Shown here in pieces: positions 6,209-8,332 of a stretch of DNA of 64,000 nt. Below the pieces are notes generated by a model. The model saw only the letters and a program-made list of their open reading frames with translations, did not search any database and had not been told where the DNA came from. This DNA comes from Natronorubrum bangense (lineage in GTDB: Archaea; Halobacteriota; Halobacteria; Halobacteriales; Natrialbaceae), in NCBI RefSeq assembly GCF_004799645.1, contig NZ_CP031305.1:2914001-2978000 (forward strand), in the 5' to 3' direction. The position numbers and the translations under genes were made by a program. Each line of letters opens with the position of its first letter. The first letter of the stretch is position 1.

Positions 6209-6907
6209 TCACTCGAGCGGCAGCGCACGCGTCTCGATCGACTCTCGGCGGCCGTCCAAGAGACCAAAGCGCTCGCCACGTCGCGACTCGAGCCAGTACA
6301 GCAGCCGTTCGGCCCACGTGAGTTTTTGTGCCTTCATTGGGCCGACCGCGGGGTCGTCGAAATCCCAGCCGACGAAGACGAGCTGGGCAGCTCCGAGATG
6401 GTCCGCGAGGAACGCTGCCCGATCGCCGTCCGTGAAGCCACCGAAATTCTGGACGGACCCCCGTGGTGTAGACTGTGTCGTCGCCAACACGGCGTCGGCT
6501 GCACAGTCGGGAACGACCGTCCGGACCGCGGGAACGTTGTCGCCGTGGGCATGGACCGCGACCGGCACCCCCTGGTGGGTCAACTGCCGAACCGTATCGG
6601 GATTTTTGTCGAGATCCGTCACCATACAGTCGACGCCGATCCCGTGTTCTGCGAGCGTGTCGGCGGCCGTCGAGGCCGCAAAGACGAGGTCTGTGTCTCG
6701 AGCCCGCTCGAGAGACGACTCGTCGTCGAGTGATGGTCCGGCCCCGGCGATCGCAACGGTGGCATCTCGAACACTCGAGAGTCGATCGAGATTGAACTCG
6801 TCGGTCAGCGACGCCAGCACGTCTCTGGCTCGCTCGTCACCGGCCCGATCGTAGCCGAAGTCGTCCAGAATCGCCTCGTAGACGGGTTCCCACTCGTCGA
6901 AGTGCAT
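6209..6907 (-). CDS. mptE: 6-hydroxymethyl-7,8-dihydropterin pyrophosphokinase, MptE type
   Basis: 232 residues matching the archaeal DUF115/MptE family: TVAIAGAGPSLDD forms the nucleotide-binding start, followed by DLVFAASTAADTL, VDCMVTDLDKNPD and LVFVGWDFDDPAVG. MptE diphosphorylates 6-hydroxymethyl-7,8-dihydropterin, the activated pterin used for tetrahydrofolate or methanopterin. It lies downstream of and on the same strand as a dihydropteroate synthase gene, whose enzyme would consume the product. The 231 bp between them hold a candidate structured RNA. No good TATA box is visible within 40 nt of the ATG at 6907, so the gene may be transcribed from the promoter ahead of that RNA. Confidence 0.85.
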   Translation of the reverse strand: MHFDEWEPVYEAILDDFGYDRAGDERARDVLASLTDEFNLDRLSSVRDATVAIAGAGPSLDDESSLERARDTDLVFAASTAADTLAEHGIGVDCMVTDLDKNPDTVRQLTHQGVPVAVHAHGDNVPAVRTVVPDCAADAVLATTQSTPRGSVQNFGGFTDGDRAAFLADHLGAAQLVFVGWDFDDPAVGPMKAQKLTWAERLLYWLESRRGERFGLLDGRRESIETRALPLE

Positions 6908-6983
6908 ACTCGAAATGAGGCGTGGAGTCGTATCCGTGTTCGGGCTTGGAGTCAGTGGTGGGCCAACAGCGCGACAGCGATGT

Positions 6984-7104
6984 CTCGAGCAACCAACTCA
7001 GTGCTCGAGTTATCACTGGTCGATGTAGCACCACAATAATTCGTGTTGTGGGCCGGGGGTCGCCTCCAAAGTACCCCTACCCGGGAGGCCGCCCGGCGTC
7101 CACC
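6984..7104 (-). ncRNA. Candidate structured RNA: separate ncRNA or mptE leader
   Basis: On the minus strand three inverted repeats follow one another. The first (7097-7051) has an outer GCCGGG/CCCGGC stem, an inner GCCTCC/GGAGGC stem and a GTA-GGGG-TAC tip. The second (7051-7031) pairs CCACAA with TTGTGG. The third (7009-6984) pairs CTCGAGCA with TGCTCGAG. A BRE/TATA-like element at 7125-7138 predicts transcription starting near 7100-7104, just ahead of the first stem. Open frames through it are short and cross the stems. It could be an independent RNA or a roughly 195-nt structured 5' leader of mptE. It is not a recognisable tRNA, SRP RNA or RNase P RNA. The first stem is followed by ACA, as in H/ACA guides, but I see no kink-turn. 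Confidence 0.45.
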
Positions 7105-7124
7105 ATCACTTTTCGAATCCTCCG

Positions 7125-7138
7125 GCATAAGCTTTCTC
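7125..7138 (-). promoter_or_regulatory. BRE/TATA-like promoter ahead of the structured RNA
   Basis: Minus strand reads GAGAAAGCTTATGC, close to the haloarchaeal BRE-TATA pattern (RnAAnYTTATA). It lies immediately after the 3' end of the dihydropteroate synthase gene (stop at 7139-7141) and about 25 nt before the first base-paired segment of the candidate RNA. Confidence 0.4.
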
Positions 7139-8332
7139 TTACTCAATCATTTCTGAGAGTGCATCGGCGAGCGCGCGTCCGTCGCCGCTTTCCTCGAGAA
7201 GATGGGCTGAAACGTCCAAAATACCGGTTCTCGATCCAACGAGAAGTGCATGTTCAGTGTCCACATACTCCACGTTGGAATCGACGTCGGTGACAGCCGA
7301 CAGCAGTCGGGTTCGTGCATCCTCGTCGAGCCCGTCGATTTCGATCGCGACTGTCGACCAGTCGTCGGCAGCCGTCGGATCGATACCACGTGTCGAGAGG
7401 TGTGCACGGAGGTCACGACTCGAGTGAATGTCGAGTCGAGAAACTGAAAATGCCGCCGTAGCCGTGCTTGCGCGCTCGGTAAACGCATGTCCGATGAGTG
7501 CTGCATCACGGGTGTCGGCGACATCGTGGGTCCGAATGACGTGTGCGCCACGTTCGACAGCCATCGACGTGGCTGCGAGACTAACTGGCAGCCGTTCGTC
7601 GGTTTCGCGGCCAGCGATCTCCCCGAGGAAGTTCTTCCGGTTGATCGAGACCAGCATGGGCTGGCCAAGCGCGCGGAACTCCCGCAGTCGGCGGAACGTC
7701 TCTCGGTCGTCTTCGAGCGTCTGGGCTTCACTCCACCCCCCGAAGGCCGGGTCGACGATCGTCTTCTCGGTGATCCCGTTCTGTTTCAGTGCTTCGTAGA
7801 CCTGATCGACGTACTCGGCCTGTGCCGCCCACTCCGGCGACTTTCGTGCGGCCCAGTCGGTTTCTCCGACTGCGCCCGGGCGCTCGAGGTCCGGTGGACT
7901 CGCCATCTTCGCGACAGCGACGTTGTGTTCTGCGCAGACGGCTGGCATCTCCGGATCGGCGAAGCCGGCGATATCGTTGACCATGTCGAATCCCTGTAAA
8001 AGCGCCTCCTCGGCCACCGTCGCATAGCGTGTCTCGATCGAGAAAATCGCATCGCCGGAGACGCGGTCGATCGTCTCGAGTGCGATATGAAGCCGCTCGA
8101 GTTCTTCTTCGGCGGAGAGCACATCAAAGCGTTTGTTCGCCGACTCGAGGCCGATGTCGACGATGTCGGCACCCTCGTCGATCAGTTCTTCGTCGACGTA
8201 CTGGGCCGCTTCCCCGGGGTCGTCGTATACGCTTGGATCGTAGGGCGACTCCTCGCTAATATTCAACACACCCATGATCCGAGGCGGGTACTCGTCGCCG
8301 ATTCCCAATCCCGCCGCGTCGACACTGTTCAT
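7139..8332 (-). CDS. folP: Dihydropteroate synthase, divergent haloarchaeal form with C-terminal extension
   Basis: 397 residues. Residues 18-290 follow the dihydropteroate synthase barrel: IMGVLNISEESPYD at the position of the usual NVTPDSF loop, GADIVDIGLESANKRFD where GGESTRPG is normal, DPAFGGW, then SINRKNFLGEI (the SRK motif) and VIRTHDV near the end. The enzyme joins the pterin diphosphate made by MptE to p-aminobenzoate. The pterin and pABA loops are clearly altered, so the aryl substrate might differ. Residues about 297-397 form an extra acidic domain I do not recognise. The mptE gene on the same strand supports the assignment. Confidence 0.75.
   Translation of the reverse strand: MNSVDAAGLGIGDEYPPRIMGVLNISEESPYDPSVYDDPGEAAQYVDEELIDEGADIVDIGLESANKRFDVLSAEEELERLHIALETIDRVSGDAIFSIETRYATVAEEALLQGFDMVNDIAGFADPEMPAVCAEHNVAVAKMASPPDLERPGAVGETDWAARKSPEWAAQAEYVDQVYEALKQNGITEKTIVDPAFGGWSEAQTLEDDRETFRRLREFRALGQPMLVSINRKNFLGEIAGRETDERLPVSLAATSMAVERGAHVIRTHDVADTRDAALIGHAFTERASTATAAFSVSRLDIHSSRDLRAHLSTRGIDPTAADDWSTVAIEIDGLDEDARTRLLSAVTDVDSNVEYVDTEHALLVGSRTGILDVSAHLLEESGDGRALADALSEMIE

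Follow-up and report, generated by a model that had tools for sequence, protein, structure and literature searches.

The 231-nt gap between folP (dihydropteroate synthase, DHPS) and mptE in the window, the whole 64,000-nt stretch of Natronorubrum bangense DNA analysed, contains a well-supported structured RNA, best read as a new haloarchaeal RNA element. A covariance model derived from 31 sequences locates this RNA in 351 of 391 Halobacteria genomes (about 90%) and in 76 of 86 genera. The RNA feature that the sequence-only reading had placed in the gap is real, and wider than first proposed. Sequence comparison leads us to prefer, tentatively, the view that the hairpin is a structured 5' leader of mptE whose loop is read by a putative trans-acting factor. 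Table 1 lists the features. The gap is numbered 5' to 3' on the minus strand, from base 1 at position 7138; the promoter GAGAAAGCTTATGCC occupies bases 1-15 and a compound hairpin bases 36-91.

Table 1. Features of the folP-mptE region (positions in the window)
Feature	Position	Strand	Basis
folP (dihydropteroate synthase, DHPS)	7139-8332	minus	TIGR01496 above its cut-off
Promoter GAGAAAGCTTATGCC, BRE and TATA box	7124-7138	minus	Fixed position 5' of P2, alignment
A-run ~10 nt 5' of predicted start; possible proximal promoter element	7110-7113	minus	Alignment
Helix P1, 5' strand GUGG	7100-7103	minus	Pairing statistics; predicted RNA 5' end ~7103
Helix P2, 5' strand GCCGGG	7092-7097	minus	Covariation
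Helix P3, 5' strand GCCUCC	7084-7089	minus	Covariation
Nearly invariant tip CGGGUAGGGGUAC	7071-7083	minus	Alignments; identical sequence at separate loci
Helix P3, 3' strand GGAGGC	7062-7067	minus	Folding, covariation
Helix P2, 3' strand CCCGGC	7052-7057	minus	Folding, covariation
Helix P1, 3' strand CCAC	7048-7051	minus	Pairing over the class and in Natrialbaceae
A/T-rich element AATTATTG, 3' of hairpin	7034-7041	minus	Position kept in many relatives
Conserved AGTGATAAC	7009-7017	minus	Counterpart of (T)AGYGACRGC adjoining the start codon in compact genomes
mptE, next gene 3' of RNA	6209-6907	minus	Pfam MptE-like, E 2e-21

Folding of 6984-7110 gave a z of -3.1, and none of 200 shuffles was equally stable. 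Compensatory changes, the test named beforehand, are abundant in an alignment of 95 matches (91 distinct rows, including a few weak matches or copies on the opposite strand), so that a structured RNA is well supported. Both-sided changes occur in 17 of 19 pairs and number 162 cells, where shuffling gives 57; the paired fraction of cells is 91.3%, compared with 36-45% in slid controls. Fitting of the alignment to the model, and the relatedness of its sequences, bias these figures towards structure, but the margin is large. The nested hairpin originally noticed, GCCGGG/CCCGGC enclosing GCCTCC/GGAGGC and a GTA-GGGG-TAC tip, is present and strongly covarying: in P2, 98.7% of cells are paired and 5 of 6 pairs show both-sided changes, as do all 6 pairs of P3. 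To the stems first listed, an outer helix P1 (GTGG/CCAC) can be added, with 84% of cells paired over the class and 95% in Natrialbaceae. Rare variants of the tip include GGUAGGAGUAC (L228), GGGCAGGGG (L116, L137) and GGAUAGGGG (L136). Inspection for H/ACA or C/D boxes and k-turns was by eye and confined to the alignment.

The three-hairpin anatomy of the sequence-only reading did not survive, since only its first hairpin is supported and the conserved part is a single compound hairpin. The CCACAA/TTGTGG stem competes with P1 for CCAC, and the changes it shows in Natrialbaceae are nearly all pair-breaking. The third stem, CTCGAGCA/TGCTCGAG (gap bases 131-156), does fold in the window; it lies largely outside the conserved part, because in most relatives of the same family the match begins at base 1 and extends no further than about base 105-135. 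Three opposite-strand R1 matches, at Haloferax loci, proved to be the reverse complement of the mptE-linked hairpin, and a weak R1 match in L134, lacking both mptE and a promoter of the family type, was likewise set aside.

The promoter motif GAGAAAGCTTATGC, recognised at 7125-7138 on the minus strand, keeps the same form across the mptE-linked sequences. TTAT lies 33-34 nt 5' of P2 in 89 of 91 of them and 32 nt in one; the remaining one has the motif with a one-base variant. In the conserved gap promoter GAGAAARCTTATRCC, the distance from TATA centre to hairpin base is 26 nt, which is also the mode among 174 promoter-plus-loop sites (mostly 19-33 nt). The usual archaeal TATA-to-start distance is 26-27 nt. 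Since the hairpin base lies at this distance, the RNA 5' end is predicted at about 7103, at the base of the hairpin.

At E <= 0.01, 74 of 100 relatives gave a match to the gap, and a pattern search found the RNA in 12 named Haloferax records. Outside Halobacteria, a phylum-wide covariance search gave nothing convincing; its two marginal matches (E ~0.006 each) were discounted, being at about chance level over ~240 other genomes. Rfam 15 has no family at gathering threshold in the window and no match up to E 5 at 6880-7160, and at 14 related loci it recovered one tRNA and nothing else; the window contains no tRNA or tmRNA. A full-text literature search, covering main articles, returned no description of the mptE hairpin RNA. 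The RNAs sRNA132 and H225.2R of H. volcanii (PMC6560208, PMC3956466) are, like the mptE hairpin, haloarchaeal intergenic non-coding RNAs. For H225.2R, conservation in 19 further haloarchaeal genomes and a pleiotropic deletion phenotype are reported (PMC3956466). Of the H. volcanii sRNAs tested, however, 22 of 27 have no homologue in any other haloarchaeon (PMC3956466), unlike the mptE hairpin, which is class-wide. H225.2R itself, described with no map position, may or may not coincide with the mptE hairpin.

Each of the 91 mptE-linked sequences tabulated has the hairpin immediately 5' of mptE, on the gene's own strand. The hairpin persists in loci that yielded no folP, some of them short (L069, L111, L130 and L158, for instance), and in L073 although folP is 1.2 kb distant. 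Moreover, folP and mptE are adjacent or nearly so in most genomes without the RNA, which also backs a leader. The distance from P1 to the mptE start codon ranges from 11 to 241 nt, most commonly 35-44 nt, and this variability argues against a leader. In L073, L119, L120 and L124, however, the start codon lies 11-13 nt 3' of P1, where another promoter will not fit, so that the hairpin there must belong to the leader, unless mptE is transcribed from a more distant upstream site. Terminator-like T-rich runs, TT(C)TTT, follow 6 of 102 hairpins at mptE against 11 of 29 separate hairpins, in sets that include related genomes and were not randomly sampled. A leader is favoured by the constant linkage to mptE, by the short spacings and by how seldom terminator-like runs occur there.

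Where P1 and the start codon are 35-44 nt apart, an A/T-rich element is found about 30 nt 5' of that codon. From its placement it may serve mptE as the TATA box in a second, proximal promoter and give a leaderless mRNA. With such a possible promoter just 3' of the hairpin in many genomes, mptE may also be expressed without the hairpin. A comparable element is present 3' of separate hairpins between convergent genes, however, and it may instead be a weak terminator. In H. volcanii, 72% of protein-coding transcripts are leaderless, and some genes have both leaderless and leadered transcripts (PMC4983044).

An exact-loop search found sites away from mptE. Many of these have their own promoter (AAAGCATAT, AAGACATTT, AAGACTTTT and others) and an enclosing hairpin, of unrelated stem, whose base lies near the expected start. 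With promoter and loop both required, matches were obtained in 170 of 194 genomes; by table count, two or three sites occur in 39 of the 194, with 44 sites beyond one per genome, compared with one hit for the reversed control. Many promoterless exact-loop matches were rejected as chance, either having no plausible enclosing hairpin or lying inside long reading frames. The window's own genome has the exact loop at its mptE copy only, and genome G089 has three sites, none of them at its mptE. Among the contexts checked is L297, with L298 and L301 alike, where the hairpin has an AAA ATPase gene (probably PAN) on one side and a convergent polyprenyl synthetase gene on the other. It follows prefoldin and DUF3194 genes both in L311, where a convergent FAD-binding oxidase gene is downstream, and in L246, where the downstream gene encodes an HTH_10 regulator; in L306 it is near a convergent ribosomal protein S3Ae gene. 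Because separate copies exist, the hairpin does not depend on mptE, and the presence of promoter-driven hairpins with the same loop at unrelated genes indicates a family of RNAs whose role extends beyond mptE and has a trans component. These unlinked hairpins, together with the case of G089, suggest recognition of the loop itself, by a shared factor.

From these patterns we infer the following course for an mptE leader. The structured RNA would be transcribed from its own promoter, starting at the base of the compound hairpin, and transcription would continue into mptE, making the hairpin the 5' leader of the mptE transcript. The nearly invariant tip GGGUAGGGGUAC would be the recognition site of a trans-acting factor, for which an RNA-binding protein is the likeliest candidate; this factor may alter the stability, read-through or translation of that transcript. 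In some lineages, the same tip would also be made from separate small hairpin RNA genes, which may share or titrate the factor. It is more speculative, and on balance doubtful, that this amounts to a class-wide haloarchaeal RNA regulon in which one putative factor recognises the G-rich loop in a folate-gene leader and in dispersed decoy RNAs, as in the Csr system. The bacterial decoy RNAs CsrB and RsmZ (sibling copies, PMC6262261) may be alike in that several loci display one protein-readable motif; the mptE hairpin differs in having one loop per RNA and another sequence, in being archaeal and in having one copy tied to mptE, and its protein is putative.

The main rival, and a close one, is an independent trans-acting sRNA of about 60-100 nt, driven by its own promoter and terminated near the A/T-rich element; mptE would then be transcribed from the second promoter. 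Such an RNA would act elsewhere through its G-rich loop, by base pairing or protein binding. We consider this a realistic possibility, if not a probable one. It would account for the promoter-driven hairpins with the same loop that stand alone elsewhere, some between convergent genes, and for the many genomes in which the A/T-rich element is positioned like a TATA box for leaderless mptE transcription; the H. volcanii genes with both kinds of transcript are also in keeping with it. The hairpin does have a predicted promoter of its own, a sequence motif at a fixed distance. On the other hand, the unbroken linkage to mptE is unexpected for a free sRNA gene, as are the start codons just 3' of the hairpin in some lineages and the few terminator-like runs at mptE. 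Furthermore, complementarity of the loop to the rRNA operon, as a guide RNA would show, was no better than that of shuffled loops.

The original proposal was either a new ncRNA or an mptE leader, perhaps one responsive to a pterin or folate. Its structured RNA stands and a leader is the preferred reading, but the separate hairpins with the same loop argue against a dedicated pterin sensor. A riboswitch, in which the hairpin would bind pterin, folate or a related metabolite and control mptE, is possible but improbable and is not favoured. A covarying structured element does lie upstream of a pterin-pathway gene to which it is constantly linked, with a nearly invariant tip on its helices, and the ligand would be putative. 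Yet the same tip is found in hairpins that neighbour unrelated genes or have no same-strand gene downstream, the hairpin has no multi-helix junction and no Rfam riboswitch matched. The bacterial THF and Moco riboswitches likewise have pterin or folate pathway genes downstream; the mptE hairpin differs from them in giving no Rfam match, in being a single compound hairpin and in having a loop that also occurs at unrelated genes. It is very improbable that the tip acts as double-stranded DNA bound by a protein rather than as an RNA element: GTA-GGGG-TAC is an interrupted palindrome close to a promoter, but compensatory changes between strands up to ~50 nt apart would be unexpected for such a site, as would a hairpin base that stays near the expected start while stem length varies between loci.

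Archaea have few known structured cis-regulatory RNAs; a 2021 paper counted a single experimentally determined natural riboswitch (PMC8241225). The fluoride riboswitch of Thermococcus kodakarensis (cited in PMC8241225) is likewise a structured RNA in an archaeal 5' leader, but it differs from the mptE hairpin in gene, lineage and fold, and Rfam gave no sequence or structure match. A covarying, class-wide RNA with a loop common to unlinked loci offers a practical way into archaeal RNA regulation and the control of folate synthesis, testable in Haloferax.

Several further observations concern the flanking sequences and the separate loci. Many compact genomes have the element (T)AGYGACRGC immediately before the mptE start codon, and Natrialbaceae retain it (Table 1) despite a start codon further downstream; AGYGAC was tried as a general trailer of haloarchaeal T-rich sites and showed no enrichment. 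Many Natrialbaceae have a second conserved hairpin RNA locus (near position 1500 of L257 and L293-L304) with promoter CCACAAAGCATATTCC, stem GGTGGACAG/CTGTCCACC and a loop, GGGTAGGGGTAC, the same as that of the mptE hairpin; in L297, L298 and L301 this locus is flanked by convergent genes. L240 (genome G195) carries, near position 1500 and away from mptE, a second copy, preceded by promoter AAAGCTTATACC, that resembles the mptE-type hairpin. Very short hairpins sharing its loop, with their own promoter and a T-rich 3' flank occur in L242-L247, L306, L307 and L311, and family f17 has very short hairpins of this loop at up to three sites per genome. In genus g52 (L202-L205, near position 1500), a short hairpin with the mptE-type loop follows promoter ACAAGACATTTACC; in L204 it is found about 95 nt upstream of a ThiF-family gene, which has a TATA-like element of its own.
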